A stretch of DNA of 64,000 nucleotides. Source: Amphibalanus amphitrite. Lineage: Eukaryota; Arthropoda; Thecostraca; Balanomorpha; Balanidae. The position numbers and the translations under genes were made by a program. The stretch is from contig NW_024881790.1 in the NCBI RefSeq assembly GCF_019059575.1, positions 372,001 to 436,000 on the forward strand. The letters are read 5' to 3'. Of this stretch, positions 35,173 through 64,000 are shown one piece after another (within the stretch, counting starts at the first letter, position 1; every line of letters begins with the position of its first letter). The notes under the pieces were generated by a model that saw only the letters and a program-made list of their open reading frames with translations, ran no database searches and was not told the DNA's origin.

Positions 35173-37605
35173 TCGGATATATTATAAAAGAGAAGTTGTC
35201 TGTGTGTCACAAACGAAAAGTGTCATCCACATCTGGGTGTCTTGCGCCGGAACGGCGCCATGTAGGGGCGTGAAATTTGGCAGGCACCAAGCGTGGTCAA
35301 ATCGAACGATGGTATTAAAATTTGGGCGCGATCCGACCAAGGGTGCGTCTCTGGCAGGGTCGCGAGCACGAGGCACGCTCGCCATTGGTTTAACACGGGG
35401 CGCGAAAAACGGCGACATCGGCCGAAATCGCTCCGACGCCTGCTCCTCTCCGGGCCTATATCTTGACGACCGGTGGTCACAGCGACACGCGGTTGCCACC
35501 GATCGATAGAGGAGAGATAAAGCTACCGTATTGATATAGTTTTATAACGTTGGTCGCGTCACGTGCACATCAGGACCTTTTGTTGTACAGAAATGGACGA
35601 TTTCGTGCCTCGTAGACATAAAATCGGTGCCGTTTGAAAACGGTTTGGCCGAATGAAATCGGTATGGCACCATTTTTTAGGTAATTGCACGTGTGATGCA
35701 ATGAATGAAAAGAAAAAGTGATTTTTACTACCACTTCCTTAATAATGAAAAATTTATTTGAAAGTGTGATGCGCGCAGAGTGCGCTGTCCTTTACAACAT
35801 CATAACGCATCGAAAACGTTAAAAATTGACCATGAAACGCACATATTCGGATAGCGCATTCTTTTCTGATCAATATCCACCCAAAATATTATCAAAAAGT
35901 CAATAAACTACCGTGAAAATGACTCAGGCATACCACAGTGTTTTGTTAACGTTAGACATATTTTCCGATGAAATCCGATCGATGGCTTATAGCCGGCATG
36001 TCATTAAACATTTGACTATCAGTCAGCACGGCATAGGCTGCAAGGCACCGCCCGCTTAGGGATATCGCAAACCCTTGAAAATTGTACTTGCATATAACTC
36101 AGTCGTTTCTGGGCCGATTGCGCTGAAACTTGGACTTTCGGCAGGCAAGGCACTCACCAAGCGATGTACGGTCATGTGTCACAGGTGGGGTGGACTCATG
36201 CACGTGCGCACGTGTGGGGTCCCTTTCTACATCTCAAGAACGGCTGGGCCGATTTCACTCACATTTTGTACACTGTTAGGGACAATTTAGACAGGTGGCT
36301 TACATAAGTCATCTGGAGTCTCAGTAAGCGCGTGCGCACGTGCAGGGGCCCATTTATATATCTCAAGAACCGGTAGGACGACAGCACTCAAATGTTGTGA
36401 AACTCTTTGGTCAAGTATGAGTAGGGCATGAGTATGCCGGGTATAGGTAGGGTACGGTATGGGAAGGGTAGGGTATGGGTAGGGTAGGGTAGGGTAGGGT
36501 AGGGTAGGGTAGGGTATTGTATGGGTAGGGTATTGTAAAGGATAGAGGTAGTTTTGGGTATGGGTAGGATAGGGTAGAGGTAGGTTTGCCGTTTGGGTAG
36601 GGTAGGGTAAAGTTGGGTATGATAGGGTAAAGTTCGGTATGGTAGGGTATAAGGTAATCGTAGGGTAGGGTATGGGTAGGGTATGGGTAGGACTAGGGTA
36701 TGGGTAGGGTATGTATATTGGTAGGGTAGGGTAGGGCCTTTTGCGGCTTTTCCTATTGGCGGCGGTTAGGCGTGCGATGTGGGCGGTTTCCTTTGTTGCG
36801 GCGTTTGCGGCGTTTTGCGGTTGGCGGCGGGCAGGCGTGCGATTCGGGCGGGCGGTTTTTTGCGGCGGCGTTTGCGTTTTTGCGGTGTTTGCGTTTATCG
36901 GCACGCGGTCGTTTTTTGCGGCGTTTTGCGGTTGGCGGCGGGCAGGCGTGCGATGCGGGCGGTTTTTTGCGGCGGTGTTTGTTTGGTGGCGGTCGGGCGG
37001 GCGATGCGGGCGGTTTTGATTTGTTTTCGGCGTTTTTGCGTTTTTTTGCGGTTTACGGCGGGCGGGCGATTTTTTATTTGTTTTTATTTATTGCGACGTT
37101 TGCGTTGGCGCTTCGGGCGTGCGTTTTGCGTTTGGGGCGGGCGGGCGCTTTTTTGGTTCCTTTTTTCGGTGTTTGCGTTTGGGGCGAGCGGGCGCTTTTT
37201 TGCGGTGTTTGCGTTTGGTGGCGGGCGGGCGATTTTTAGGCGTTTTCGGTTGGCGGTTAGCGTGCGTTCGATGCGAACGGTTTTATTTTTGCGGCGTTTT
37301 TGCGTTTTTTTGCGTCGGGCGGGCGATTCTTTATTTTTTTGCGACGTTTGCGTCGGCATTTCGGGCGTGCCTTTGGCGCATTTTGCGGTGTTTGCGTTTT
37401 GCGGCGGGCGGGCGGCGTTTCACAATTCAAAGTCCCAACATTCGGATCTCAATTGCTCCTCGAAAAGCCATACACACCTACTATACAGTTTAATGAAGAA
37501 ACTACCAAACTCTACTTATTAAACCTAGAAGTTTTGACAACCAAACTGATAATCCCCTTAATATATCTCGAACCTATACAGTTATCGCGTAAACCTGTAT
37601 TCTAG
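35173..37605 (+). repeat. Array unit 1 (2433 bp)
   Basis: Starts TCGGATATATTATAAAAG directly after CTAG, and ends ...GTATTCTAG. Blocks: Helitron-like 5' block 35173-36420, TAGGG-rich block 36421-36735, G+T block 36736-37420, tail 37421-37605. Its G+T block is the shortest of the array, and the longest pure TAGGG run (about 36477-36513) is here. The open frames it contains (for example plus 36779-37522) are products of the skewed composition. Confidence 0.85.
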
Positions 37606-40287
37606 TCGGATATATTATAAAAGAGAAGTTGTCGGTCTGTACGTCTGTGTGTCACAAACGAAAAGTGTCATCCACATCTGGGTGTCTTGCGCCGGAACGG
37701 CGCCATGTAGAGGCGTGAAATTTGAAAGTCGACAAGCGTGGTCAAATCGAACGATCGTATCAAAATCTGGGCGCGATCCGACCAGGGGTGCGTCTCTGGC
37801 AGGGTCGCGAGCACGAGCCACGCTCGCCATTGGTTTAGCACGGGGCGCGAAAATTGGCGATATTGGCCGAAATCGGTGCGACGCGTGCTCCTTTCCGGGC
37901 TTATATCTTGACGACCGCTGGTCACAGCGACACGCGGTTGCCACCGATCGATAGAGGAGAGATAACGCTAGCGTATTGATATGTTTTTATAACGTTGGGC
38001 GCGTCACGTGCACATCAGGACCAATTGTTGTGAAAAAATGACCGATTTCGTGCCTCGTGGAGGAAAAATCGGTGCCGTTTGAAAACGGTTTGACCGAATT
38101 AAATCGGTGTCATTCCATTTTTTAGGTAAATATACGAGTAAATGAATGATGGAAAACAAAAAGTGATTATGTCTACCATTTCCTTAATAACGAAAGATTT
38201 ATTTGAAAGTTTGATACACGCCGAGTGCGCTGTCTTTACAACATCATAACGCATCGAAAACGTTGAAAATTGACCATGAAACGCACATATTCGGATAGCG
38301 CATTCTTTTCTGATCAATATCCACCCAAAATATTATCAAAAAGTCAATAAACTTCCGTGAAAATGACTCAGGCATACCACCGTGTTTTGTTAACGTTAGA
38401 CATATTTTCCGATGAAATCCGATCGATGGCTTATAGCCGGCATGTCATTAAACTTTTGCCAATCAGTCAGCACGGCATAGGCTACAAGGCACCGCTGGCT
38501 TAAGGATATCGCCAAACCCTTGAAAATTGTACTTGCATATAACTCAGTCGTTTCTGGGCCGATTGCGCTGAAACTTGGACTTTCGGCAGGCAGGGCACTC
38601 ACCAAGCGATGTAGGGTCATGTGTCACAGGTGGGGTGGACTCATGCACGTGCGCACGTGAGGGGGTCCGCTTCTACATCTGATGAATCCCTGGGTCGATT
38701 TCACTCAAATTTTGTACATTTTTGGGGACAATTTAGATAGGTGGCTCACATAACTCATCTGGAGTCTCAGTAAGCGCGTGCGCACGTGCAGGGGTCCATT
38801 TATATACCTCAAGAACAGGTAGGACGATAGCACTCAAATTTGGTTACACTCCTCGGTCAAGTATGAGTAGGGCATGAGTATGCCGGGTATAGGTAGGGTA
38901 CGGTATGGGAAGGGTAGGGTTTGGGTAGGGTAGGCTTTGGGTAGGGTAGGGTAGGATAGGATAGGGTACGTATGGGTAGGGTAGGGTAGGTTATTGTATG
39001 GGTAGTGTATAGGATAGATGTAGTTTTGGGTATGGGTAGGGTTAAGTCGTATGGTAAGGTATAGGGTAGGGGTAGGTTTGCCGTTTGGGTAGGGAAGGGT
39101 AAAGTTGGGTATGCTAGGTTAAAGTTGGGTATGGTAGGGTATAAGGTAAACGTAGGGTAGGGTATGGGTAGGGTATTGGTAGGACTAGGGTATGGGTAGG
39201 GTATGTATATTGGTAGGGTAGGGTAGGGCCTTTTGCGGCTTTTTCGATTGGCGGCGGTTAGGCGTGCGATGCGGGCGGTTTCCTTTGTCGCGGCGTTTGC
39301 GGTGTTTTGCGGTTGGCGGCGGGCAGGCGTGCGATGCGGGCGTTTTTTTGCGGCGGTGTTTGCGTTTTTGCGGTGTTTGCGTTTGTCGGCGGGCGGCCGT
39401 TTTTTTGCGGCGTTTTGCGGTTGGCGGCGGGCAGGCGTTCGATGCGGGCGGTTTTTTTGCGGCGGTGTTTGTGTTTGGCGGCGGGCGGGCGGGCGATGCG
39501 GGCGGTTTTGATTTGTTTGCGGCGTTTTGCGTTTTTTGCGGTTTGCGACGGGGGGCGATTTTTTATTTGTTTTAATTTATTGCGACGTTTGCGTTGGGGT
39601 TTCGGGCGTGCGTTTTGCGTTTTGGGTCGGGCGGGCGCTATTTTGTTTCTTTTTTACGGTGTTTGCGTTTGAGGCGAGCGGGCACTTTTTTGCGGTGTTT
39701 GTGTTTGGTGGCGGGCGGGCGATTTTTAGGCGTTTTCGGTTGGCCGTTAGCGTGCGTGCGATGCAGACGGTTTTTAGGCGTTTTTGCGTTTTTTTTTGCG
39801 TTGGGCGGGCGATTGTTTATTTTTTGCGGCGTTTGCGTCGGAATTTCGGGTGTGCCTTTGGCGCATTTTGCGGTTTTAGTGTTTGGCGGCGAGCGGCCGT
39901 TTTTTTTTTCGAGGCGTTTGCGGTTGGCGGCGGGTGGGCGGGCGATGCGGGCGGTTTTCATTTTTCCGGCGTTTGCGGTTGGCGGCGGGCTGCGCGCGAT
40001 GCGGGCGGTTTTTATTTTTTTTGCGGCGTTTGCGGTTGGAAGCGGTCGTTTTTTATTTTTGCGGACTTTGCGGTTGGCGGCGGGCGGGCGTGTTTTTTTT
40101 TTTAATAATTCAAAGTCCAAACTTTTGGATCCGTAGTGCTCCTCGAAAAGCCATGCCTACCTACTATACATTTAAATAAAGTAACTATCAAACTCAACCC
40201 TACTTATATAAACATACAAACCAAACTAATGGCCCCATCAACAATATCTATCCAAACGTACAGTTATCGCGTAAACCTGTATTCTAG
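37606..40287 (+). repeat. Array unit 2 (2682 bp), near-identical to unit 6
   Basis: Blocks: 5' block 37606-38870, TAGGG-rich 38871-39229, G+T 39230-40098, tail 40099-40287. Sequence agrees with unit 6 almost base for base at a constant offset of 11890 until a few single-base length changes in homopolymer runs of the G+T block. Other units differ from it by several percent. Confidence 0.88.
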
Positions 40288-42869
40288 TCGGCTATATTAT
40301 AAAAGAGAAGTTGTCGGTCTGTCTGTAACAACCAAAAAGTGTCATCCACATCTGGGTGTCTTGCGCCGGAACGGCGCCATGTAGGAGCGTGAAATTTGGC
40401 AGGCACCAAGAGTGGTCAAATCGAACGATCGTATTAAAATTTGGGCGCGATCCGACCAGGGGTGTGTCTCTGGCAGGGTCGCGAGCACGAGGCACGCTCG
40501 CCATTGGTTTAACACGGGGCGCGAAAACGGCGCCGTCGGCCGAAATCGGTGCGAGCCGTGTCCCTTTCCGGGCTTATATCTTGACGACCAGTTGTCACAG
40601 CGACACGCGGTTGCCACCGATCGATAGAGGAGAGATAAAGCTAGCGTGTTGATATGGTTTTATAACGTTGGGCGCGTCACGTGCACATCAGGACCCATTG
40701 TTGTGAAAAAATGACCGATTTCGTGCCTCGTGGAGGAAAAATCGGTGCCGTTTGAAAACGGTTTGGCCGAATGAAATCGGTGTGGTACCATTTTTTAGGT
40801 AAATATATGAGAAAATGGATGATGGTAAACAAAAAGTGATTATGTCTACCATTTCCTTAATAATGTAAAATTCATTTGAAAGGTTGATGCGCGCCGAGTA
40901 CGCTGTCGTTTACAACACGATAACGTATCGAAAACGTTGAAAATTGACCATGAAACACACATATTCGGATAGCGCATTCTTTTCTGATCAATATCCACCC
41001 AAAATATTATCGAAAAGTCAATAAACTTCCGTGAAAATGACTCAGGCATACCACCGTGTTTTGTTAACGTTAGACATATTTTCCGATGAAATCCGATCGA
41101 TGGCTTATAGCCGGCATGTCATTAAACTTTTGCCAATCAGTCAGCACGGCATAGGCTACAAGGTACCGCTGGCTTAAGGATATCGCCAAACCCTTGAAAA
41201 TTGTACTTGCATATAACTCAGTCGTTTCTGGGCCGATTCCGCTGAAACTTGGACTGTCGGTAGGCAGGGCACTCACCAAGCGATGTAGGGTCATGTGTCA
41301 CAGGTGGGGTGGACTCATGCACGTGCGCACGTGAGGGGTCTGCTTCTACATCTGATGAATCCCTGGGTCGATTTCACTCAAATTTTGTACATGACCATGA
41401 CTATGACCATGACTATGACTATGATGACCATGACTACGGTTAGGGACCAGTTATTAGGGTGCCGTGCACAAGTCAGTTGGGACCCATTTTGCACGTGCGC
41501 ACGTGCAGGGTGCCGCTTCCAGATCTCGAGAACGGCTGGGCCGATTGTGCTCAAATTTGGCACATTGCTAGAGACCGGTTAGTAGGGTGCCGTGCACAAG
41601 TCAGTTGGAGGTACCCCCTCGAAATTTCGCACGTGCAAGGCTCACCCTCTCGCTCGCTCCGTTAGTCGCCCCAAAAGGCGTTATACTGGCAGGGTATAAG
41701 GTAAACGTAGGGTAGGGTATGGATAGGGTATGGGTAGGACTAGGGTATGAGTAGAGCATGTATATTGGTAGGGTAGGGCCTTTTGCGGCTTTTTCGATTG
41801 GCGGCGGTTGGGCGTGCGATGCGGGCGGTTTCCTTTGTTGCGGCGTTTGCGGCGTTTTGCGGTTGGCGGCGGGCAGGCGTGCGATGCGGGCGGTTTTTTG
41901 CGGCGGTGTTTGCGTTTTTGCGGTGTTTGCGTTTGTCGGCGGGTGGCCATTTTTTGCGGCGTTTTGCGGTTGGCGGCGGGCAGGCGTGCGATGCGGGCGG
42001 TTTTTTTTGCGGAGGTGTTTGAGTTTGGCGGCGGGCGGGCGGGCGATGCGGGCGGTTTTGATTTGTTTGCGGCATTTTTGCGTTTTTTTTTGCGGTTTGC
42101 GGCGGGCGGGCGATTTTTTATTTGTTTTAATTTATTGCGACGTTTGCGTTGGCGTTTCGGGCGTGCGTTTTGAGCGTTTTGCGTTTTCGGGTGGGCGGGC
42201 GCTTTTTTGTTTCCTTTTTACGGTGTTTGCGTTTGGGGCGAGCGGGCGCTTTTTTGCGGTGTTTGTGTTTGGTGGCGGGCGGGCGATTTTTAGGCGTTTT
42301 CGGTTGGCGGTTAGCGTACGTACGATGCAGACGGTTTTTTAGGCGTTTTTGCGTTTTTTTTTTTGCGTTGGGCGGGCGATTGTTTATTTTTTGCCACGTT
42401 TGCGTCGGCATTTCGGGCGTGCCTTTGGCGCATTTTGCGGTTTTAGCGTTTGGCGGCGACCGGCCGTTTTTTCGAGGCGTTTGCGGTTGGCGGCGGGCGG
42501 GCGTGCGATGCAGGCGGTTTTCATTTTTGCGGCGTTTGCGGTTGGCGGCGGGCGGGCGCGCGATGCGGGCAGTTTTTATTTTTTGCGGCGTTTGCGGTAT
42601 TTTTTTGCGGTTGGAGGCGGTCGTTTTTTATTTGTGCGGCGTTTGCGGTTGGCGGCGGGCGGGCGTGTTTTTTTTTTTTAATTCAATGTCCAAACTTTTG
42701 GATCCGTAGTGCTCCTCGAAAAGCCACACCCACCTATTACACAATTGAATAAAGTAACTATCAAACTCAACCCTACTTATATAAACATAAAAGTTTTGAC
42801 AACCAAACTAATGGCCCCATCTACAGTATCTATCCAAACGTACAGTTATCGCGTAAACCTGTATTCTAG
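40288..42869 (+). repeat. Array unit 3 (2582 bp)
   Basis: Blocks: 5' block 40288-41690, a reduced TAGGG-rich block 41691-41780, G+T 41781-42680, tail 42681-42869. Within the 5' block it has a (CATGACTATGAC)-type microsatellite at 41392-41440, then a direct duplication of about 120 bp (AGGGTGCCGTGCACAAGTCA near 41456 and 41585) not seen in the other units. Confidence 0.85.
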
Positions 42870-43155
42870 TCGGATATATTATAAAAGAGAAGTTGTCTGT
42901 GTGTCACAAACGAAAAGTGTCATCCACATCTGGGTGTCTTGCGCCGGAACGGCGCCATGTAGGAGCGTGAAATTTGGCAGTCGACAAGCGCGGTCAAATC
43001 GAACGATCGTATTAAAATTTGGGCGCGATCCGACCAGGGGTGCGTCTCTGGCGGCGTCGCGAGCACGAGCCACGCTCGCCATTGGTTTAGCACGGGGCGC
43101 GAAAAACGGCGCCGTCGGCCGAAATCGGTCCGACGCGTGCTCCTTTCCGGGCCTA

Positions 43156-45075
43156 CACTGTAAAAAATGCTAACAAACCAGTTAGTTAATTCTTCAAGCA
43201 AAATCTAGTATTAAAACACACGTTGTTGCAAAAAACGGGTCAGATAACACATATGTTTGCAACCTAACACCACAGCCATTTCATCGAAGCAGAAAAGCTA
43301 ACATCATTGTAAGCCGACAAATATTATCCGTGCAAACCATGCCGTGTTATTTGACAAACATGTTTGTTTATGCTTCCTTTGCCTTTTTTTCTAGATAACG
43401 TGTTAACTAACAAATGAAACGCATGTTGAAACCCACAATCTTAGTTTTCTTACTACCCTTTTTGTTGTAGCATTACAAAGACCTTAGTTAATTGAAAAAA
43501 ATCGCCATTTTGTGCGCCCCTCTGCGCCCGCCATGTTCAGTCTGTGCCAAGTCGGAGAAGGGAGAGGACGTGTGCGTTGTGAAGGAGCTGAGCTGTGGCG
43601 TATAAGTGTTGCGTGTGCAGTATGTAAGGAGCTGCTGTGATGTTAAGAATAAGAATAATAATAAGTCAAACAGTGAAATGATATGGATTGTTGGAAATGG
43701 CTTTCATCCTTACTGGTATGGTGAGTGATTATGGGAAAGATCAGTGCAGATATTGCTGGCGTTTTAGTGTGGTTTATGTACCTATGTCACTCATTTTCTT
43801 TTCAATTGAACCTCCAACCAGGCTTTATAGGGTCTCAGGTTGGAGACACTCACTGTTCATTTGTTGACTGTCAATTGACGTCTATAAGTACAAATGACGG
43901 ACTGAACAATGAGCCTGTTGCACACTAAAACCGCATTAAGCTTTGAACAAGAAATTAAATGTACCTAATTTTTGGTTGGGCACTCAACCAGTGAACGCGG
44001 TGAGGTGCTGTTTTATGCAATTCCTGTCACTGCACCCATGTTGTCAAATAAATTTCTTGTAGACACATGAGCCACCATTGTTCGGTCAGGGATTTTTTGC
44101 CATTTTGTTGCAATTTAGTTTACCCATATCGACAGAAATGAAGCATTCTCAATGTTTTCGTGATAGTTATTTGGAGCCTGTATGGTGTCATGGCTGGTGC
44201 GGATTCCTGCAGGCTATATATAATTGCAGGTGTGAATCAGTGCAGATTTGTCACCACGACCGGTGCAGATTACCGACTGATTTATGACGTTGGTTGGCTT
44301 GAGGTTGGTTGCGTTGCTTCATTCGTTGGTTTGAATAAACATCTTTGTGTTTAAATACTCGTCTGTATGATACTTTTTTTTAAATAAAAATTTCGACGCC
44401 TGTCGCAACACGGTGTGTGAAAACGCACAACATGTATATAAACTGTAAAACATATTTGCACGTTTCGAGTCATCCTGGCAAATCTCACTAACCAAATGCG
44501 TGTAAACTTTGTATTTACACACTGCATCCCGATCCCGAAGTTTATAACGCATTTGGCTAATGATATTTGCCTGGATAACATGTGCACGTTGTGCAACTCT
44601 CGGCAGAAGCTTGTGAAGCTTACTCACATTTTGCGTGTAAGCGTGTTTCTTCTGTGTGTGTTATGTAACACCGAAGTTAGTTATCCTGCAACTAGGCGAT
44701 GCCTAGTTGCATGATAACTGACTTCGGTGTTACATAACACGCACAAAAGGAAACACGCTTACACGCAAAATGCTAGTAAGCTTCACACGCTTTTGCCTAG
44801 TGAGATTTGCCAGGATAACTAACTTTTTAGTTACTCTACACGCATAATATTAGTACATTGACAGGTAGATATTAGTTAAGTAACACGGTCACACGCAAAA
44901 GGCGTGTAGGTCAACACCACGTCGAAAACTAATGTCTTAGTTTCATAACACGTTTTTTCTTAAAAGCGTGTTATATAAAACACGTTTGACCAGTAGATGC
45001 GTGTAAACTTTACACGCTTTAGGTTAGTGAGATTTGCCATGATAACACGGAAGTTAGTTAACATTTTTTACAGTG
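43156..45075. mobile_element. TA-flanked non-autonomous DNA transposon
   Basis: Inverted ends CACTGTAAAAAATGCTAAC (left) and CACTGTAAAAAATGTTAAC (right, read inward), flanked by TA at 43154-43155 and 45076-45077. Other array units read GGGCCTATATCTTGACG across the site, so the empty site is known exactly. 1920 bp. The right half (about 44400-45070) is full of inverted copies of a motif like ACACGCTTACACGC. The left half (43500-44350) looks unrelated and gene-like in composition (several short frames, one AATAAA near 44334) but I recognise no protein. TA duplication suggests Tc1/mariner mobilisation. Confidence 0.85.
44609..44789. repeat. Large palindrome, ~89-bp arms
   Basis: The arm 44609-44697 and the arm 44701-44789 are inverted copies (about nine of ten bases agree) separated by only three bases (GAT). 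The centre is AACTAGGC-GAT-GCCTAGTT. It can extrude as a long hairpin. Related inverted pieces occur near 44470-44530 and 44990-45050. Confidence 0.85.
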
Positions 45076-47475: not shown

Positions 47476-49495
47476 AGGACCAATTGTTGTGAAAAAATTA
47501 CCGTTTTCGTGCCTCGTGGAGGAAAAATCGGTGCCGTTTGAAAACGGTTTGCCCGAATGAAATCGGTGTGGTACCATTTTTTAGGTAATTGCACGTGTGA
47601 TGCAATGAATGAAAATAAAAAGTGATTGCAACTACCACTTCCTTAATAACGAAAGATTCATTTGAAAGTTTGATGCGCGCAGAGTGCGCTGTCCTTTACA
47701 ACACGATAACGTATTGAAAACGTTGAAAATTGGCCATGAAACACACATATTCGGATAGCGCATTCTTTTCTGATCAATATCCACCCAAAATATTATCAAA
47801 AAGTCAATAAATTTCAGTGAAAATGACTCAGGCATACCACCGTGTTTCGTTAACGTTAGACATATTTTCCGATGAAATCCGATCGATGGCTTATAGCCGG
47901 CATGTCTTTAAACATTTGACCATCAGTCAGCACGGCATAGGCTGTAAGGCACCGCCCGCTTAGGGATATCGCCAAACCCTTGAAAATTGTACTTGCATAT
48001 AACTCAGCCGTTTCTGGGCCGATTGCGCTGAAACTTGGACTGTCGGCAGGCAGGGCACTCACCAAGCGATGTAGGGTCATGTGTCACAGGTGGGGTGGAC
48101 TCATGCACGTGCGCACGAGAGGGGGTCTGCTTCTACATCTGATGAATCCCTGGGTCGATTTCACTCAAATTTTGTACACTGCTAGGGACAATTTAGACAG
48201 GTGGTTCGCATAAGTCATCTGGAGTCTCAGTAAGCGCGTACGCACGTGCAGGGGCCCATTCATATATCTCAAGAACAGGTAGGACGATAGTGTTCAAATT
48301 TGGTAAAACCCCTCGCCTCGGTCAAGTATGAGTAGGGCATGAGTATGCCGGGTATAGGTAGGGTACGGTATGGGAAGGGTAGGGTAGGGTAGGCTTTGGA
48401 TAGGGTAGGGTAGGGTAGGGTAGGGTAGGGTAGGACTAGGGTATGGGTAGGGTATGTATATTGGTAGGGTAGGGTAGGGCCTTTTGCGGCTTTTTCGATT
48501 GGCGGCGGTTGGGCGTGCGATGCGGGCGGTTTCCTTTGTTGCGGCGTTTGCGGCGTTTTGCGGTGTTTGCGTTTGTCGGCGGGCGGCCGTTTTTTTTGCG
48601 GCGTTTTGCGGTTGGCGGCGGGCAGGCGTGCGATGCGGGCAGTTTTTGCGGCGGTGTTTGAGTTTGGCGGCGGGCGGGCGGGCGATGCGGGCGGTTTTGA
48701 TTTGTTTGTGGCATTTTTGCGTTTTTTGCGGTTTGGGGCGGGCGGGCGATTTTTTATTTGTTTTAATTTATTGCGACGTTTGCGTTGGCGTTTCGGGCGT
48801 GCGTTTTGCGCGTTTTGCGTTTGGGGGCGGGCGGGCGCTTTTTTGTTTCCTTTTTACGGTGTTTGCGTTTGGGGCGAGCGGGCGCTTTTTTGCGGTGTTT
48901 GTGTTTGGTGGCGGACCGTCGATTTTTAGGCGTTTTCGGTTGGCGGTTAGCGTGCGTGCGATGCGGACGGTTTTTTTTCGGCGTTTTTGCGTTTTTTGCG
49001 TTGGGCGGGCGATTGTTTATTTTTTGTGACGTTTTCGCCGGCATTTCGGGCGTTCGTTTTGCGCATTTTTGCGGTGTTTGCGCTTGTCGGCGGGCGGCCG
49101 TTTTTTCGAGGCGTTTGCGGTTGGCGGCGGGCGGGCGGGCGATGCGGGCGGTTTTTTTGCGGCGTTTGCGGTTGGCCGCGGGCGGGCGCGCGATGTGGGC
49201 GGTTTATTGCGGCGTTTGCGGTGTTGTTAGCGGTTGGCGGCGGTCGTTGTTTATTTTTGCGGAGTTTGTGGTTGGCGGCGGGCGGGCGTTTTTTTATAAA
49301 TAATTCAATGTCCAAACTTTTGGATCCGTAGTGCTCTTCGAAAAGCCATACCTACCTACTGTATGTATAATTAGATAAAGCAACTATCAAACTCAACCCT
49401 ACTGATATAAACATTCAAGTTTTGACAACCAAACTAATGGCCCCATCAACAATATCTATCCAAACGTACAGTTATCGCGTAAACCTGTATTCTAG
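47476..49495 (+). repeat. Array unit 5, lacking its 5' ~400 bp
   Basis: Begins within the 5' block (AGGACCAATTGTTGTG), so the terminus, the 5' hairpin and about 400 bp are missing. Blocks: 47476-48325, TAGGG-rich 48326-48480, G+T 48481-49295, tail 49296-49495 ending CTAG. Confidence 0.84.
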
Positions 49496-52178: not shown

Positions 52179-54898
52179 TCGGATATATTATAAAAGAGAA
52201 GTTGTCGGTCTGTACGTCTGTACGTAACAATCGCAAAGTGTCATCCACTTCTGGGTGTCTTGCGCCGGAACGGCGCCATGTAGGAGCGTAAAATTTGGCA
52301 GGCACCGAGCGTGGTCAAATCGAACGATCGTATCAAAATCTGGGCGCAATCCGACCAGGGGTGCGTCTCTGACAGGGTCGCGAGCACGAGGCACGCTCGC
52401 CATTGGTTTAGCACGGGGCGCGAAAAATGGCGATATTGGCCGAAATCGGTGCGACGCGTGCTCCTTCCCTGGCTTATATCTTGACGACCGGTGGTCACAG
52501 CGACACGCGGTTGCCACCGATCGATAGAGGAGAGATAAAGCTAGCGTATTGATAAGGTTTTATAACGTTGGTCGCGTCACGTGCACATCAGGACCAATTG
52601 TTGTGAAAAAATGGCCGATTTCGTGCCTCGTGGAGGAAAAATCGGTGCCGTTTGAAAACGGTTTGACCGAATGAAATCGGTGTGGTACCATTTTTTAGGT
52701 AATTATATGAGAAAATGGATGATGGTAAACAAAAAGTGATTATGTCTACCATTTCCTTAATAATGTAAAATTCATTTGAAAGGTTGATGCGCGCCGGGTG
52801 CGCTGTCCTTAACAACATCATAACGTATCGAAAACGTTGAAAATTGACCATAAAACACACATATTCGGATAGCGCATTCTTTTGTGATCAATATCCACCC
52901 AAAATATTATCAAAAAGTCAATAAATTTCCGTGAAAATGACCCAGGCATACCACCGTGTTTCGTTAACGTTAGACATATTTTCCGATGAAATCCGATCGA
53001 TGGCTTATAGCCGGCATGTCATTAAACATTTGACCATCAGTCAGCACGGCATAGGCTGCAAGGCACCGCCCGCTTAGGGATATCGCCAAACCCTTGAAAA
53101 TTGTACTTGCATATAACTCAGCCGTTTCTGGGCCAATTGCACTGAAACTTGGACTGTCGGCAGGCAGGGCACTCACCAAGCGATGTAAGGTCATGTGTCA
53201 CAGGTGGGGTGGACTCATGCACGTGCGCACGTGAGGGGGTCTGCTTCTACATCTGATGAATCCCTGGGTCGATTTCACTCAAATTTTGTACACTTTTGGG
53301 GACAATTTAGACAGGTGGCTGACATAAGTCATCTGGAGTCTCAGTAAGCGCGTGCGCACGTGCAGGGGTCCATTTATATACAAGACAAGACAATACAAGA
53401 CAATACAAGACAATACAAGACCAGGTTAGACGATAGCACTCAAATTCGGTAAAACTCCTCGGTCAAGTATGAGTAGGGCATGAGTATGCCGGGTATAGGT
53501 AGGGTACGGTATGGGAAGGGTAGGGTAGGCTTTGGGTAGGGTAGGGTAGGGTAGGGTAGGGTAGGGTAGGATAGGGTACGTATGGGTAGGGTAGGGTAGG
53601 TTATTGTATGGGTAGTGTATAGGATAGATGTAGTTTTGGGTATGGGTAGGGTTAAGTATAGGTATGGTAAGGTATAGGGTAGAGGTGGGTTCGCCGTTTG
53701 GGTAGGGAAGGGTAAAGTTGGATATGCTAGGTTAAAGTTGGGTATGGTAGGGTATAAGGTAAACGTAGGGTAGGGTATGGGTAGGGTATGGGTAGGTTTA
53801 GGGTATGGGTAGGGTATGTATATTGGTAGGGTAGGGTAGGGCCTTTTGCGGCTTTTTCGGTTGGCGGCGGTTATACGTGCGATGCGGGCGGTTTCCTTTG
53901 TTGCGGCGTTTGCGGCGTTTTGCGGTTGGCGGCGGGCAGGCGTGCGATGCGGGCGGTTTTTTGCGGCGGTGTTTGCGTTTTTGCGGTGTTTGCGTTTGTC
54001 GGCGGGCGGCCGTTTTTTTTTGCGGCGTTTTGCGGTTGGCGGCGGGCAGGCGTGCGATGCGGGCGGTTTTTTTTGCGGCGGTGTTTGTGTTTGGCGGCGG
54101 GCAGGCGGGCGATGCGGGCGGCTTTGATTTGTTTGCGGGGTTTTTGCGTTTTTTTGCGGTTTGCGACGGGGCGGCGATTTTTTATTTGTTTTAATTTATT
54201 GCGACGTTTCGGTTTGCGACGGGGCGGCGATTTTTTATTTGTTTTAATTTATTGCGACGTTTGCGTTGGCGTTTCGGGCGTGCGTTTTGCGCGTTTTGCA
54301 TTTTGGCGGGCGGGCGATTTTTAGGCGTTTTCGGTTGGCGGTTAGCGTGCGTGCGATGCGGACGGTTTTTTAGGCGTTTTAAGTATTTTTTTTTGCGTTG
54401 GGCGGGCGATTGTTTATTTTTGCGACGCTTGCGTCGGCATTTCGGGCGTGCCTTTGGCGCATTTTGCGGTTTTAGCGTTTGGCGGCGAGCGGCCGTTTTT
54501 TTCGAGGCGTTTGCGGTTGGCGGCGGGCGGGCGTGCGATGCGGGCGGTTTTCATTTTTGCGGCGTTTGCGGTTAGCGGCGGGCGGGCACGCGATGCGGGC
54601 GGTTTTTATTTTTTGCGGCGTTTGCGGCGTTGTTTGCGGTTAGAGGCGGTCGTTTTTTATTTTTGCGGCGTTTGCGTTTGGCGGCGGGCGGGCGTGTTTT
54701 TTTTTTAAGAATTCAAAGTCCAAACTTTGGGATCCGTAGTGCTCCTCGAAAAGCCATGCCTACCTACTATATGTACATTTAAATAAAGTAACTTTCAAAC
54801 TCATCCCTACTTATATAAACATAGGTACATACCAAACAAATGGTCCCATCAACAATATCTATCCAAACGTACAGTTATCGCGTAAACCTGTATTCTAG
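52179..54898 (+). repeat. Array unit 7 (2720 bp)
   Basis: Blocks: 5' block 52179-53468, TAGGG-rich 53469-53840, G+T 53841-54705, tail 54706-54898. A short (ACAAGACAAT)n tract lies at 53380-53425. The G+T block has a direct duplication of about 60 bp (TTTGCGACGGGGCGGCGATT near 54161 and 54212). Confidence 0.85.
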
Positions 54899-57800
54899 TC
54901 GGATATATTATAAAAGAGAAGTTGTCGGTCTGTACGTACGTGTGTCACAAAAGAAAAGTGTCATCCACATCTGGGTGTCTTGCGCCGGAACGGCGCCATG
55001 TAGGAGCGTGCAATTTGGCAGGCACCAAGTGTGGTCAAATCGAACGATCGTATCAAAATCTGGGTGCGATCCGACCAGGGGTGTGTCTCTGGTAGGGTCA
55101 AGAGCACGAGGCACGCTCGCCATTGGTTTAACACGCGGCGCGAAAAACGGCGACATCGGCCGAAATCGGTCCGACGCGTGTCCCTTTCCGGGCCTATATC
55201 TTGACGACCGGCTGTCACAGCGACACGCGGTTGCCACCGATCGATAGAGGAGAGCTAAAGCTAGCGTATTGTTATGGTTTTATAACGTTGGGCGCGTAAC
55301 GTGCAAATCAGAACCCATTGTTGTGAAAAAATGGCCGATTTCGTGCCTCGTAGAGGAAAAATCGGTGCCCTTTGAAAACGGTTTGGCCGAATGAAATCGG
55401 TGCGGTACCATTTTTTAGGTAATTGCACGTGTGATGCAATGAATGAAAAGAAAAGGTGATTGTTATTACCACTTTCTTAATAATGAAAAATTTATTTGAA
55501 AGTTTGATGCGCGCCGAGTGCGCTGTCCTTTACAACATCATAACGTATCGAAAACGTTGAAAATTGACCATGAAACACACATATTCGGATAGCGCATTCT
55601 TTTCTGATCAATATCCACCCAAAATATTATCAAAAAGTCAATAAACTTCCGTGAAAATGACTCAGGCATACCACCGTGTTTTGTTAACGTTAGACATATT
55701 TTCCGATGAAATCCGATCGATGACTTATAGCCGGCATGTCATTAAACTTTTTCCAATCAGTCAGCACGGCATAGGCTACAGGGCACCGCCCGCTTAGGTA
55801 TATCGCCAAACCCTTGAAAACTGTACTTGCATATAACTCAGCCGTTTCTGGGCCGATTGCGCTGAAACTTGGACTGTCGGCAGGCAGGGCACTCACCAAG
55901 CGATGTAGGGTCATGTGTCACAGGTGGGGTGGATTCATGCACGTGCGCACGTGAGGGGGTCTGCTTCTACATCTAATGAAACCCTGGGTCGATTTCAATC
56001 AAATTTTGTACACTGCTAGGGACAATTAAAGGAAAAGGGCCACCTTTAACATGGGGATTGAAACTGAGATAGCCATCTTGTAGCCCGTGTCCGAAAACCT
56101 ATCTGTCTACCTCCTTACGGCCGATTTCGGCCTCCATTCGTAGATATCGGCAATTTTAAAAGAAAATACGCCAGGAATGCGTTCTTATCCAAGGAATGCG
56201 TTCTTATCCGACAATACAGTCGCCCGCGGCGAGGCTTTGGTTTTTTACCAATCAGCTCCAACCAGCTCAGCTTTAACCAATCAGCTTATCTGACACAATC
56301 CGACGAGTCTGTCTTCTGAACGCTGATTGGCTTGAGTGTGACGTCATCGCTATGCCATCATACAGTAGGTGCCGTAGAGAGTATCAACATAGTACCAATA
56401 TGTTAAATAGTTTTAAATACTTTTTCGCGAATTGTGCACTTCTGGCACCAGTTTTAAAAAGAAAATGAAAAATAATAATGTCAAAATGAAAAACAACGAT
56501 ATCTTCATATTTCACGAAGGTGGCCCTTTTCCTTTAAGACAGGTGGCTGACATAAGTCATCTGGAGTTTATTAAGCGCGTGCGCACGTGCAGGGGCCCAT
56601 TTATACATGTCTCAAGAACAGGTAGGTCGATAGTACTCAAATTTGGTAAACCTCCTCGGTCAAGTATGAGTAGGGCATGAGTATGCCGGCTATAGGTAGG
56701 ATACGGTATGGCAAGGGTAGGGTATGGGTAGGGTAGGGTAGAGTACGTATAGGTAGGGTAGGGTAGTGTATAGGATAGAGATAGGTTTGAGTATGGGAAG
56801 GGTATGGTAAAGTATGGGTATGGTAAGGTATAGGGTAGAGGTAGGTTTGCCGTTTGGGTAGAGTAGGGTAAAGTTGGGTATGGTAGAGTATAAGGTAAAC
56901 GTAGGGTAGGGTATGGGTAGGGTATGGATAGGACTAGGGTATGGGTAGGTTATGTATATTGGTAGGGTAAGGTAGGACGTTTTGCGGCTTTTTCGATTGT
57001 CGGCGGTTAGGTGTGCGATGCGGGCGGTTTCCTTTGTTGCGGCGTTTGCGGCGTTTTGAGGTTGGCGGCGGCCAGGCGTGCGATGCGGGCGTTTTTTTGC
57101 GGCGGTGTTTGCGTTTTTGCGGTGTTTGCGTTTGTCGGCGGGCGGCCGTTTTTTGCGGCGTTTTGCAATTGGCGGCGGGCAGGCGTGCGATGCGGGCAGT
57201 TTTTTTGCGGCGGTGTTTGTGTTTGGTGGCGGGCGGTTGGGCGATGCGGGTGGTTTTGCTTTGTTTGCGGCGTTTTTGCGTTTTGTTTTGCGGTTTGCGG
57301 CGAGCGGGCGATTTTTTATTTGTTTTAATTTATTGCGACGTTTGCGTTGGTGTTTCGGGAGTGCGTTTTGCGTTTTGGGGCGGGCGGGCGCTTTTTTGTT
57401 TCCTTTTTACGGTGTTTGCGTTTGGGGCGAGCGGGCGCTTTTTTGCGGTGTTTGCCTTTGGTGGCGGGCGGGCGATTTTTAGGCGTTTTCGGTTGGCGGT
57501 TTGCGTGCGTGCGATGCGGACGTTTTTTCGGAGTTTCTGCGTTTTTTGCGTTGGGCGGGCGATTGTTTATTTTTTGCGACGTTTGTCGGGCGTGCCTTTC
57601 GCGCATTTTGCGGTTTTAGCGTTTGGCGGCGGGTGGCCGTTTTTCGAGGCGTTTGCGGTTGGCGGCGGGCGGGCGTGCGATGCGGGCGGTTTTCATTTTT
57701 GCGGCGTTTGCGGTTGGCGGCGGGCGGGCGCGCGATGCGGGCGGTTTTTATTTTTTGCGGCGTTTACGGTGTTATTTGCGGTTGGAGGCGATCGTTTTTT

Positions 57801-58037
57801 ATTTTTGCGGCGTTTGCGGTTGGCGGCGGGCGGGCGTGTTTTTATAAATAATTCAAAGGCCAAACTATTGGATCCGTAGTGCTCCTCGAAAAGCCATACC
57901 TACCTACTTACAATTAAATAAATAACTATAAAACTCAACCCTACCTATATAAGCATACAAGTTTTGACAACCAAACTAATGGCCCCATCAACAATATCTA
58001 TCCAAACGTACAGTTATCGCGTAAACCTGTATTCTAG
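54899..58037 (+). repeat. Array unit 8, interrupted by a TTAA MITE
   Basis: 3139 bp including the MITE at 56030-56533; about 2631 bp without it. Blocks: 5' block to 56660, TAGGG-rich 56661-56980, G+T 56981-57845, tail 57846-58037. Its CTAG is joined to TCTATATTATGATTTATAA, the terminus of the other subfamily. Confidence 0.85.
56030..56533. mobile_element. TTAA-flanked MITE (AGGAAAAGGGCCACCTT ends)
   Basis: Perfect inverted ends AGGAAAAGGGCCACCTT, with TTAA at 56026-56029 and 56534-56537. 504 bp, no gene. Other units read GGGACAATTTAGACAGG at this place, so the insertion is bounded exactly, and the target in this copy must have been TTAA instead of TTTA. Confidence 0.92.
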
Positions 58038-58071
58038 TCTATATTATGATTTATAACATGTCCGTGCGTTC
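58038..58071 (+). repeat. Divergent array unit, 5' piece (left of LTR element)
   Basis: TCTATATTATGATTTATAAC and 14 more bases match the Helitron 5' end at 25079 much better than they match the units 1-8. The unit continues at 62784 after the LTR element. Confidence 0.8.
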
Positions 58072-58255
58072 TGAAGTAGACAGCACGGCGTCCCGTTCAA
58101 AACTGTATTGCTTCCCGGCCGCTCACCCGAGGTCGTGTCACAGATACTGCCCGAGGCACCGGGCGAGTCCACTGGGACGAGAGGGGTGACCAGTATGCGA
58201 GGGAGAGAGGGAGAGGGAGGGAGGCCGCCGGTAGAGGCGAGAGCCGGTTATGACA
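58072..58255 (-). repeat. 3' LTR of the Ty3/gypsy element
   Basis: 184 bp, TG...CA ends, apparently identical to 62595-62778. It contains a purine-rich GGGAGAGAGGGAGAGGG stretch. Confidence 0.95.
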
Positions 58256-58349
58256 TCCCTCCACCCCGCAATATAACATAATCACAACTAACGTAACAAC
58301 AAAACTCTGGTCACTTTTAACGATATCAGGCACGGAGCGCTCACAAACT

Positions 58350-60950
58350 TCACTCACACAACAGCCGGTCCGGCCGCCGTAACGTCTCTCGCGGACGCAG
58401 ATTGTATCGCGGCGCCGGCGGCGGTCCGCCCGCCGGGACCGACGGTGACCCGTCCGGAGCAGCCGGGGCCACCGCCCGAGCCGTCAGTCCGGCCCTCGGC
58501 GGTACGTCGGCATCAAAGAGGTCCCGCCGCGTCCGATCCAGGTCCAGCGCCCGTCCAGCGGTCGGCGGCGGCACGTCGGCCATGGTCCGGCGCGGCCGGA
58601 CCCGATCCAGATGCCTCCAGATCACTCTCCCATCCTGCAACTGAACAGCCAGTTTTACTCCCTTCCGCACCACTATCACACCCGGCAGCCATTTACAACC
58701 AGCAGCACTTTGTACACGATCAACGGCTGACACAAACACAGCATCGCCTACGCACACGGAACGTTCATAGGAGCCCCTGTCGGCGTACAGTTTTTGTTTG
58801 TCCTGGTTTTTCCTCACTCTACCACTCAGATCAGGCCTGACCAGATCCAGCGGGGTTCGCACCGTCCTGCCAAGGAATAATGCCGCTGGGGACACCTGGG
58901 TGGTTGTGTGCGGTGTTGTGCGATAGCGCAGCAGGAAACGCGCTATTTTGGTGTGAATCGTGCCCGATGTTTGCTTTTTAATACTGTTTTTCAATGTCTG
59001 AACACTACGCTCCGCCAAACCGTTAGATTTCGGAGACAGTGCAGGAGAAGTCAAATGGTGAATGCCATTCGAGCGACAGAACGTCTGAAAAGTCTCAGAC
59101 AAGAAACATTGTGCGTTGTCAGACACAAGAGTCTTTGGCAGCCCCCACGAGGAAAATGAAGCGCGCAAATGTTCTATGGTGGTCTCGGACGTGCATGATC
59201 GCGACGGAAACACGTCCATCCACTTTGAATGAGCGTCAATGACAATTAATACCCACCAGCCATCAATTGGACCACAATAATCTACGTGCACACGCTCCCA
59301 TGGTTTTGATGGCCAAATCCATGGGTGCAGCGGAGTCTCAGGTACGTTGGCACGATAAGCCTGACATTTGCCACAATTCTGTGCAATGGATGTGATGTCC
59401 TGATCGAGGTTAGGCCACCACACATACATTCTTGCGAAAGACTTGGTGCGCGTCTCTCCGCAGTGCCCGTCGTGTAGAAGACTCAAAATTTTTGCCCTTC
59501 CCTGTGGCGGTATCACAACGCGCGAACCCCACAATATACATCCATCCTGAATGCTCAGCTCGGCTTTACGGGACCTAAAAGGTCGGAAATCTGGCGACAG
59601 CACCTCCCCGTCATCCGGCCAGCCCTCCTGAACATACTGAAGCACGACAGCCAAGACAGGGTCTCTAGAGGTCCACCGGCGAATGTGGTCCACAGTGACC
59701 GGAGACGCGTCTAAAAACTCCATCAAATGTATCGTCTCCGCCGGAACGGGGCTCGACTGACCGACCACCGACGACGGGACGGGCAGCCGACTGAGCGCGT
59801 CACAGTGAGTTTGTTTAACGCCGGGGACGAATTCAAGGCGATAATCATACGCTCCCAGCATAAGGGCCCACCTGACCACCCGGGGCGATGCCATCAGTGG
59901 GAGCGGCTTGGACTCACCTATCAGCCCCAGCAGGGGCTTATGATCGGTCCGTATTGAAAACGGACGGCCCGCCAGATAATAGTGGAACCTCTTTACACCG
60001 GCCACCACCGCCAAACCCTCCCGGTCGGTCTGGGAGTAGCGCCTTTCAGTCTCGTTTAAAGAGCGCGAATAAAACGCGATCGGTCTCTCCCCTTGCCTCG
60101 TTTGCTGGCTAAGAATGCACCCCAATCCCACTGGACTGGCGTCACATGCCAAAATCACAGGGAGTTTTGGGTCAAAATGTCCCAAAACGGGAGGGCTTTT
60201 GAGCAAACGTTTCGCATCCTCAAAAGCTCTCCTTTCAATGTGCGTCCACTGCCAAGGGCGATTTTTCCGTAACAGAACATACAGCGGCGAAAGGGTGGTG
60301 GCCAAACCCTGCAAAAATTTTCCGTAGTAATTGATAAGGCCGAGCCAGCACCGCAGCTCGGAGACATCTCGGGGCTCTGGCGCGCCCGTGATGGCAGCGA
60401 CCTTTTCCTCAGTCGTCTCCACGCCGCTCCCGCTGACCTTGTGACCCAGGTACGTTACGCTGTCCACGCCCAAACAGCACTTGTCCCGGTTCGCCCTGAG
60501 ACCCGCCTCACGCAGCCGGCGCAACACCTCACGCAGCGCTACATCATGACTTTCCACAGTCTCACCCGCCACGACAACATCATCGAGGAACACACACACA
60601 CCCTGTATCCCCGCTAACAGCGTGTCCATGGTTCTCTGGAACAGGGACGGGGCTGAAGCGTACCCGAAGCTAAGTCTCGTGGGTCTCAGCAATCCCCTCT
60701 GTGTGTTTACGGTCAGAAAGTCACGTGAATTCTGATCGAGAACCATCTGGTTGTACGCGGACTTAAGGTCTATCTTTGAAAAGACCTTACTGCCTGTTAA
60801 GCGTGTAAGCAGCTCTTCCACGCGTGGAAGCGGATATTGGTCCACCTTGGCCACCCTGTTGACCGTGAGGCGATAGTCCCCACATAACCTGATCTTTCCC
60901 CCGGGTTTTGGCACGACGACTAGGGGGGGCGGCCCACTTACTGTGCTCCA
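58350..60950 (-). mobile_element. Pol part: reverse transcriptase, RNase H, integrase
   Basis: Minus-strand coding part of the LTR element. Reverse transcriptase is shown by FSKIDLKSAYNQM and FLDDVVV (active-site Asp pair). RNase H follows (ILACDASPVGLGCIL, then FSIRTDHKPLLGL). Integrase has its zinc-binding HHCC segment (ending CGKCQAYRA) and catalytic core (VDYCGPIDGWW, VSDNAQCF, ERSVQTLKN). The C-terminal tail carries RYNLRPRE, common at the ends of Ty3/gypsy Pol proteins. Described as part of a fossil element only. Confidence 0.93.
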
Positions 60951-62553
60951 CTGGCTCCCACAGTCCTTGCTGGATCTGTTTCTCCAGCTCGGCATCCACC
61001 TGCTCGCGGAATGCCAGTGGGACTGTGCGAGCTTTGAAGAATCTCGGCTTCACATCGGGATCCACCGAAATGGTCACCTCAGCGCCACGATAGCACCCCA
61101 AACCATCGCTGAAAACTTCAGAAAACTCCTGAACGAGCGTCTGAGCCCGAGAGCGGTCGGTAAGCTGACATATGGAGGGCCAGTCAAGTCGTATGGTCGA
61201 CAGCCAGTTTCGACCAAAAAGAAATGGTCCCTCGCCCTTAACTACCACCAGCGGCAGCTGCGCTCGCTGCCCGCCATACTGAACATCCACCATCGCCTGA
61301 CCACACACCCCTAACACCTCACCGCTGTAAGTTTTCAACAGTTTGTCACATGGCCTAAGATGGGGCCCACCGACCGGCCAAGTACCCTTGAACACTTTCT
61401 CTGAGCAAACAGACAATGCAGCTCCCGTATCTAACTCCATACGCAGCGGGCAGCCGTCCACACATACATCAACCATTAGTGGTGGTTTACGATCTACTCC
61501 CAACTGCACCCCTTGAGCACGGAACAAGTAATATGGCTCGTCCTCACCGTCATTGTGGGGCGCCGCGCCACTCTGAGAAGTCCCAGGCGTCACGGACGGC
61601 TCCGGCTGCTCCTCCTCCTCCAGCAGCCGGACACGCTGAGACTCGGCGCGGCTCCGGCAGGCCGCTCTGGTGTGGCCCACGGCTCCGCACGCATAACAGT
61701 TCTGCGAGCGGAAGGGGCAGGCCGCCGGGACGTGCCGTCGGCTGAGACAGCGGCTGCAGGCACCCCGCGCCGGCGGAGCGCGGGAGGCAGCCCCGCCGGT
61801 GTCCAGGGGACGCCGATTGTCGTTCACCAGTGCTCGCCGGCTGTCGTTCACCAGGGCTGGTCGGCTGTCGTTCACCAGTGCTCGCCGACTGTCGTTCACC
61901 AGTGCTCGCCGGCTGTCGTTCACCAGGGCTGGTCGGCTGTCGTTCACCATCCTCCGTGGTGTCCCATCGACCCGTCCGATGACGGCAGACGACTCGGAGC
62001 GGCCGCTGAGCTCGGCTGCACTGGCTGCTGCCGACTCGTGGGCCTGAGCGATCTCCAGAGCCGTGTCCAGAGTCAGCCGCGGCTCGCTCAGCAGACGTGA
62101 TTGCAGCCGCTCATGCTGAATACCGCAAACCAGTCGGTCACGAAGCATCTCGTCCAGCTGGCCTGGCTGAAACTTGCAGGGCTTCGCAAGCTTGCGGAGC
62201 CTCGCCGAAAACGACGACACTGACTCTCCAGCATCGCGAGTGCAGGAGTGAAACCGAAATCTGGAGACAATTGCAGATTGTTGCGGTTCAAAGTGGTCGA
62301 CCAATATCTTCACCAGCTCCTTGAACGTTTTGTCTCCCACTGCGGCTGGGGCTATGAGGTCCTCCAGGAGGCTGAAGGTGCTGGCGCCAACCGCGCTCAG
62401 CAGTATGGCGCGGCGCTTCTCGACTTCATCTTCACCGACGCTGTTGGCGACAAAGTGCTGTTCGAGACGCCTGCTGTACGCGCCGAACGACTCCACTGCC
62501 GCATCAAACTCGGGCGCCCGGCTCACTGACGCCATCACTGCTTCCCTTGCCAC
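60950..62553 (-). mobile_element. Gag and protease part
   Basis: Minus-strand coding part. The N-terminal half resembles Ty3/gypsy Gag capsid (LEQHFVANSVGED, then FKELVKILVDHFEP, and LRDRLVCGI). A tandem eight-residue repeat (VNDSRRAL type, encoded by 24-bp units at about 61812-61955) follows. Next comes a CCHC zinc knuckle (CYACGAVGHTRAAC) and an aspartic protease motif (LDTGAALSV). The boundary with the pol part is given only approximately. Confidence 0.9.
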
Positions 62554-62594
62554 TAATCACCGCGCGGCGCACACGTTCACCGCCTCGTCGCCAT

Positions 62595-62778
62595 TGAAGT
62601 AGACAGCACGGCGTCCCGTTCAAAACTGTATTGCTTCCCGGCCGCTCACCCGAGGTCGTGTCACAGATACTGCCCGAGGCACCGGGCGAGTCCACTGGGA
62701 CGAGAGGGGTGACCAGTATGCGAGGGAGAGAGGGAGAGGGAGGGAGGCCGCCGGTAGAGGCGAGAGCCGGTTATGACA
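62595..62778 (-). repeat. 5' LTR of the Ty3/gypsy element
   Basis: 184 bp, apparently identical to the copy at 58072-58255. CGTTC target duplication follows at 62779-62783. Confidence 0.95.
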
Positions 62779-62783
62779 CGTTC

Positions 62784-63801
62784 TCCATCCATCCATCCGT
62801 GTGTCATGACTTATGTGTCTTATTGCGTCGGAACGGCGGCACGTAGCGACGTGAAATTTGGCATGCCGAATCTGTGGGCATGGGCGGCCTTTATATTAAA
62901 ATTTGGGCGTGATCGGACCAGGGGTGCGCCGTCGGCACGTGCAAAAGGGCGCTCTCATAGGGATAGCATGGTGTCGGCGAGAGCGGCGGTCGGCCGAAAA
63001 TCGGGCCGACACGGCTCGCTTTCCGGCTTGATATCTCGGCAATGGGTGGACGCAGCGAAAAGCGGTTGCCACCAATGGATAGAGGAAAGATGGGCCTAGC
63101 GTATTGATATGGTTTCATAGTGTAGCACGCGCCACGTGCAAGACAGCATCCCCGGTTGTGAAAAAATGACCGATTTCGTGCATTGTGACGGGAAAATCGA
63201 TGCCGCTGGAAAACGTCTTGACGGAATGAAATCGGTGTTGTATCATTTTGCAGACAAATGTATGTGTAATCAGAGAATAGCAAACAAAAGCTGATGATCC
63301 GTACCATTTCCTTAATAATCAAAAATTAATTTGAAAATTTGATTCGCGCGGAGCGCGACGTCCTTTACAACATCAAAACGTATTGAAAACGCTGATCAAT
63401 CGCTATGAAACCTACATATTCGGAAAGAGCATTCTTTTCTGACCAATATCCACCCAAAATATTATCGAAAAGTCAATAAACTTTTGTGAAAATGACTCAA
63501 ACAGACGACCGCGTTTCGTTAACGTTACGGGTATTTTTCGACGAAATCGGTGGCTTCGGCAGGCAGGCATTCAACCACTGACAACAAACGGTACCGGAAG
63601 GCACCTCTCGCCAGGGGAATTCGCCAGTAAATAAAATAAATTTATTCTTGCAATAACTCAGCCGCTACCGGGCCGATTGTGCTGAATTTTGGGACTGTCA
63701 ACGGGCACATATCGAACGACACATTACCATATGTAGGGTGCTAAATGCTAATGCACGTGCACACCTGGAAAGGAGCAGTTTCCTATCTCAAGAACGGCTG
63801 G
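62784..63801 (+). repeat. Divergent array unit, main piece
   Basis: Continues the unit begun at 58038. To about 63540 it matches the Helitron at 25105-25870 closely, including TCCATCCATCCATCCGTGTG and the GGCATGCCGAATCTGTGGGC block. After that it follows units 1-8 in diverged form (AACTCAGCCGCTACCGGGCC; ATGCACGTGCACACCTGG). It ends in CAAGAACGGCTGG, without CTAG, TAGGG or G+T blocks, so its 3' part is missing. Confidence 0.82.
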
Positions 63802-64000
63802 TCGGATATATATTATAAAAGAGAAGTTGTCTGTGTGTCACAAACGAAAAGTGTCATCCACATCTGGGTGTCTTGCGCCGGAACGGCGCCATGTAGGAGC
63901 GTGAAATTTGGCAGTCGACAAGCGTGGTCAAATCGAACGATCGTATTAAAATTTGGGTGCGATCCGACCAGGGGTGCGTCTCTGACAGGGTCGCGAGCAC
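63802..64000 (+). repeat. Array unit 9 (start only, runs off the window)
   Basis: TCGGATATATATTATAAAAG and the following sequence match units 1-8, including the GCGCCGGAACGGCGC hairpin. The unit is cut by the window end, so the array continues to the right. Confidence 0.88.

Follow-up and report, generated by a model that had tools for sequence, protein, structure and literature searches.

The head-to-tail Helitron array described here lies in a 64,000-nt stretch of the Amphibalanus amphitrite genome (the window, G000:C293:372001-436000; the assembly comprises 807.55 Mb in 2,644 contigs, labelled C plus a number). This array and those found on other contigs are probably stacks of mostly independent Helitron insertions, made at the 5′ ends of resident elements. 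Their members belong to two related families, the coding family A (5′ end TCTATATTATGA) and the non-coding B units (5′ end TCGGATATATTATAAAAG). The arrays were assembled mostly unit by unit, insertion occurred between A and T without target duplication, and a position five bases inside the resident (+5) was used as well. A slash marks a boundary in the sequences below.

The original prediction placed the start of the array at 35173 and described units joined as CTAG/TC. All eight of its joins (35172, 37605, 40287, 42869, 49495, 52178, 54898 and 58037) were found where they had been placed. The first seven were said to read CTAG/TCGGATATATTATAAAAG; six do so exactly and one, at 40287, carries a single mismatch, with TCGGCTATATT on its right side. 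The join at 58037 was described as different and indeed reads CTAG/TCTATATTATG; the letters after CTAG are the coding-family 5′ end, found at 25079 too. The proposed relationship between the start of the units and the coding Helitron was borne out by an identity of 74.7% between unit positions 82-814 and 25152-25874. Parts of the description required correction. The first member of the array is the coding Helitron, which begins at 25079 and whose terminal CTAG forms the first join, and the stretch 42870-49495, presented as a single unit, is a composite of two fused units with a lost join at 47475 and an insert resembling a terminal inverted repeat (TIR) element. An extra join, CTGG/TCGG, was located at 63801/63802. 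The array extends past 64000, with joins at C293:438198 and 440631, and reaches at least G000:C293:443275, where the join reads CTAG/TATATATTATAAAAG. The members in the window are as follows.

25074..25078, plus strand: probable TCGGA stub of 5 bp from the 5′ end of a split resident B-type unit; candidate remainder at G000:C293:443275.
25079..35172, plus strand: coding A-type Helitron of 10,094 bp, TC...CTAG; 5′ end TCTATATTATG after TCGGA, 3′ end abutting the next TC.
35173..37605, plus strand: B-type unit of 2,433 bp; near-identical units in C257, C103 and C576 and further along the same array.
37606..40287, plus strand: B-type unit of 2,682 bp; near-identical units at 49496-52178 and, one, in C72.
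40288..42869, plus strand: B-type unit of 2,582 bp, first letters TCGGCT.
42870..49495, plus strand: composite of a B unit with a TIR-like insert (approximately 43155-45076), fused at 47475 to a second, 5′-truncated B unit.
49496..52178, plus strand: B-type unit of 2,683 bp.
52179..54898, plus strand: B-type unit of 2,720 bp.
54899..58037, plus strand: B-type unit of 3,139 bp.
58038..63801, plus strand: A-type unit bearing a long terminal repeat (LTR) retroelement; begins TCTATATTATG and finishes CTGG.
63802..64000, plus strand: opening of a further B-type unit (TCGGATATATATT), which runs out of the window.

Several of these members have been altered internally. The retroelement at 58072-62778 has identical 184-bp direct repeats (TG...CA) with CGTTC on either side, and its minus-strand open reading frames (ORFs) are gag-like and reverse transcriptase/RNase H/integrase; the identity of the LTRs suggests a recent insertion. 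The insert of approximately 1.9 kb at 43155-45076 has inverted ends (ACACTGTAAAAAATG... and ...TTTTTTACAGTGT) and resembles a TIR DNA transposon. At the 47475 fusion, the first B unit has a shortened 3′ end and the second begins at approximately unit position 411. B units also contain a G-rich stretch of GGGTA/GGTAG-like sequence, followed by a GC-rich region of approximately 55-bp repeats (for example, 53467-54700).

Joins of this kind are numerous in the genome. The exact 22-base join occurred 125 times in the assembly and the reversed pattern not at all, a difference far beyond chance. Among 146 exact B 5′ ends (TCGGATATATT), a count that leaves out ends after an AG other than CTAG, 125 followed CTAG, 19 followed A, one followed T and one followed GG. 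Exact A 5′ ends were preceded by A or G in 597 cases and by C or T in 10; the first 100 listed of the 597, counted by eye, comprised 52 with G and 48 with A. Head-to-tail arrays starting after A were found in C72, C81, C103, C257, C344, C576, C588, C713, C799 and C924, and the sequence ahead of the C72 array was the 3′ end of an A-type Helitron. In the sampled DNA, exact 5′ ends of the two families totalled 89: 69 came after CTAG or CTGG, eight after TCGGA, 10, all of them B, after another A, and two in other contexts. This DNA, which holds 58 B joins against the 125 exact joins genome-wide, was picked for joins and stubs and is therefore biased, so that the genome count for B, 125 of 146, is the fair figure.

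At the other terminus, the base next to an exact copy of the B-type 3′ end was a T, itself before A, G or T, in 57 cases (headless joins, described below, included) and was G, A or C in 52. A next base of G (48 of the 52) was considered as a further type of join and rejected: 16 of 17 sampled cases read CTAG/GCCGGCCGGCC, which in C22 lies within a longer stretch, and the CTAG is taken to be an internal, old 3′ end. These sequences probably represent a composite Helitron family that passed the old 3′ end and retained it internally.

Units were also compared with one another. The comparison set consisted of 64 complete B-type units from 14 contigs, headless units included; A-type units, units longer than 3.3 kb (C293 414870, C81 1037759 and C50 704170), units cut at the edges of the sampled DNA and units without a recognised 3′ end were dropped. 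Mean identity was 93.07% for adjacent units (44 pairs), 92.67% for units within an array (179 pairs) and 92.33% for units of different arrays (1,837 pairs). Identity exceeded 99% in 35 pairs, 22 of them between arrays. For these pairs the two left-hand neighbours were compared with each other, as were the two right-hand ones, provided that both were complete, distinct units; none of 38 comparisons exceeded 99% (maximum 97.8%). Near-identical units with differing neighbours indicate that the units arrived separately and whole, not in blocks. Exact joins between A- and B-type units were present in both orders.

The insertion site itself was recovered at the C924 array, whose left edge reads CACCATAA/TCGG and whose 3′ end, approximately 44 kb onward, reads CTAG/TTTGAGC (the middle of the array, C924:186501-203000, is known from pattern matches alone). 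The two flanks, when joined, form a dispersed repeat, and 40 of 40 copies listed cross the junction at 90-98% identity (40 of 424 candidates were scored). Four copies inspected whole had neither insert nor duplication. The closest reads exactly CACCATAA/TTTGAG; among the others the base before T is A in two and G in one. These empty copies place the insertion between A and T without target duplication. Consistent with this result, 19 of 20 unjoined exact B 5′ ends were preceded by A and the remaining one by T.

The +5 position was revealed by short remnants of residents. The sequence TCGGA lies directly before an A-type 5′ end at seven sites in the genome, against a chance expectation of approximately one (our estimate, assuming approximately 300 A-type ends after A), and an eighth stub, in C22, precedes the 5′ end TCTTACTT. 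A minority of units (n=15), termed headless, start with TATATT after CTAG rather than with TC. In three cases read over their full length, one in C1627 and two in C22, the order is CTAG/TCGGA/insert, ending CTAG/TATATTATAAAAG. Stub and headless unit together (TCGGA plus TATATT) restore the B-type 5′ end, which supplies an internal empty site between A and T. In these fully read cases newcomers inserted 5 bp into residents, leaving TCGGA ahead and a headless unit behind. In C11, a headless unit stands approximately 10.5 kb beyond a stub, behind an A-type 3′ end; the two are probably a pair, the stretch between them being mostly unread. The headless start at C293:443275, CTAGTATATATTATAAAAG, is its sole occurrence in the genome, and the stub at 25074-25078 probably belongs to that unit.

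In C924:158501-186500, five units open with TATATT straight after CTAG, that is, with a Helitron 5′ end lacking TC, and no stub was seen at the left edge of this array. Two near-identical neighbours among these TATATT units may have moved by way of the altered 5′ end. More generally, headless units without a stub would be explained if a headless parent later transposed using its new 5′ end.

Several results weigh against serial insertion as the whole account. No headless unit has been assigned to three of the seven TCGGA stubs (C12, C76 and C22:1663439), and for 11 of 16 headless joins (seven in C924 and four in C503) no stub is known; a loss of CGG from the C293 unit could yield identical letters. 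Near-identical pairs within the same array numbered 13, against a shuffled mean of 3.11 (reached by 1 of 5,000 shuffles), and adjacent near-identical pairs numbered four, against a mean of 0.77 (20 of 5,000 shuffles); the identity of adjacent units was also slightly above random (32 of 5,000 shuffles). This enrichment within arrays and among neighbours indicates that local hopping, read-through or duplication generated some units from within the array that holds them. In addition, only three of 10 A-bounded units at the 5′ edge had a near-identical sister, against 32 of 64 units overall. Near-identical units are thus not enriched at the 5′ edge, and strict growth from that edge is unsupported. 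Growth may have occurred at the 5′ edge only or also at internal joins. A search for relatives of the C81 edge unit, in which eight of 3,752 candidates were scored, did not list even the locus of the query itself, and nothing follows from it.

The original prediction attributed the joins to rolling-circle read-through from one 3′ end into the next 5′ end. In a model of this kind, Rep overruns the 3′ terminator or one circle is copied many times over, and a head-to-tail concatemer is delivered in a single insertion. The precision of the joins fits such a process, and terminator bypass is cited for the Helitron arrays of bats and silkworm (PMC4067079). Read-through or multimeric circles may account for the near-identical neighbours, four of the 44 adjacent pairs (in C257, C344, C924 and, presumably, the two 2,374-bp units of C50). 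The remaining neighbours, however, are nearly as dissimilar as units of different arrays, no neighbours of near-identical pairs match in the 38 comparisons, and neither the mixed A/B joins nor the pairs of stub and headless unit are predicted. As the general source of the arrays, read-through is therefore unlikely. Enlargement in the manner of a satellite, by unequal crossing-over or by recombination between a circle and a resident, would account for the within-array enrichment (13 pairs against 3.1) and for the deletion-like fusion at window position 47475. Exchange inside units should have left mosaics, yet near-identical units match from TC to CTAG while flanked by unlike neighbours, which argues against within-unit exchange; nor would recombination produce exact mixed A/B joins or +5 insertions. 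It is very unlikely to have built the arrays.

Helitrons have a general preference for AT, seen in 49 de novo insertions in wheat (PMC13286980), and the arrays might simply be safe havens in which randomly inserted copies survived. Random insertion between A and T should have struck any of the approximately 176 AT dinucleotides counted in one unit, whereas 125 of 146 B 5′ ends lie exactly at CTAG, and an origin without targeting is highly improbable. Repetitive units are prone to misassembly, but the joins occur on many contigs with differing flanks, orders and unit sequences, and the C924 flanks, put together, agree with empty copies; an assembly artefact deserves hardly any credence.

If, as favoured here, the arrays are stacks of insertions, a newly mobilised A or B copy would enter whole, as one unit, where a resident Helitron has its 5′ terminus. 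At position 0, the host A and the T of TC would form the target, and a perfect CTAG/TC join would result. At position +5 (TCGGA/T), a 5-bp stub would remain ahead of the newcomer and a unit minus TCGGA behind it. Rep would recognise and nick the resident 5′ end, either as a donor origin or because CTAG/TC mimics the circle junction. The Rep of family A may mobilise B units, judging from the shared 5′ region (74.7% identity) and the similar 3′ end. The balance tips slightly toward a Helitron lineage whose insertion is truly specific to its own 5′ terminus, presented either by a resident 5′ end or by a circle-like CTAG/TC join. Arrays would then be self-reinforcing landing pads that collect coding and non-coding families, with TCGGA-less units transposing by a new 5′ end. 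A Helitron that directs itself to a defined site is thereby suggested, which bears on the target choice of Rep and on the origin of stacks.

Head-to-tail Helitron arrays were previously taken as the footprint of rolling-circle replication. For the tandem arrays of Helitrons in Myotis bats and silkworm, the primary papers are reportedly those of Pritham and Feschotte in 2007 and Thomas in 2010. In the present arrays the same footprint was apparently left mostly by serial insertion, and arrays alone are therefore not evidence of read-through. Perfect junctions between Helitrons in head-to-tail order have been described in maize and bats (PMC2267711), and the arrays of bats and silkworm, which share with those described here both perfect junctions and clustering, were explained by failure to stop at the termination signal (PMC4067079), whereas most neighbours in the present arrays do not look like copies of a common template. 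A precedent for consecutive insertion is a maize pair in which CTAG is followed directly by TC between two unlike Helitrons; its authors infer consecutive insertion and discuss an AT formed by a host A and the T of TC (PMC2267711). That case is a single pair of unresolved order, whereas the present arrays occur genome-wide, mix two related families and include +5 insertions.

A precise CTAG-TC junction is found in Helraiser circles (PMC4778049, PMC5876387), and the Helraiser transposase cleaves the plus strand at this junction in vitro (PMC5876387). There the junction is part of a circular intermediate, whereas the target proposed here is a chromosomal join or 5′ end, a use that was not found in the excerpts consulted. 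Among Helitrons of Fusarium and Metarhizium, three tandem copies have been described, with insertion into the 5′ end of another element as one option, and self-insertion is discussed (PMC5148889); unlike the present arrays, these are single cases with non-canonical (Helitron2-type) termini. In maize, Helitrons favour sites close to other Helitrons (Yang and Bennetzen 2009, as cited in PMC12477314). A bias toward Helitrons is thus common to both systems, taking the form of proximity in maize and of base-exact 5′-end insertion here. In the literature searched, as excerpted, no report was found of genome-wide Helitron stacks with unit-by-unit evidence or of +5 insertion leaving a stub and a headless unit; either may have been described before.

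The tests applied support classification of the units and the coding element as Helitrons, on the basis of TC...CTAG ends, insertion between A and T, lack of target duplication and a RepHel-coding relative. The 3′ ends conform to CTRR, being CTAG or sometimes CTGG. The T-rich insertion site expected of a DINE-1/Helentron-derived satellite (PMC4067079) was not seen here; the units have TC and CTAG ends and insert between A and T. The coding element contains the following ORFs.

26600..28372, plus strand: stop-to-stop ORF, start of Helitron_like_N (Pfam PF14214, E 1.1e-12).
30138..32072, plus strand: ORF, PIF1 helicase (Pfam PF05970, E 4e-55); motifs located by script are the HUH-like PHGH and the Walker-type GTGKT and DEAP.
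32865..33890, plus strand: ORF, C-terminal part of PIF1 and Pif1 2B domain (Pfam PF21530, PF05970).

In the Rep part of 25079-35172, a frame change judged by eye lies between 28.4 and 30.2 kb. It may reflect introns, damage or both, and the copy may be inactive. A small hairpin had been proposed just before CTAG. When the 39 bases at the 3′ end of one B unit and of the coding element were folded and compared with shuffles, the short ACAG...CTGT pairing was present in the B unit but its folding was not distinguished from shuffled sequence (z -0.25), and no hairpin was evident in the coding element, which folded worse than shuffles (z +1.13). A search of Rfam gave no match.

Two further features of the window were noted. 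An ORF at 7427-9502 contains a reverse transcriptase domain (PF00078, E 3e-38) and possibly belongs to a non-LTR element. A tandem array of 195-bp units, in approximately 13 copies, occupies 11864-14416, outside the Helitron array.

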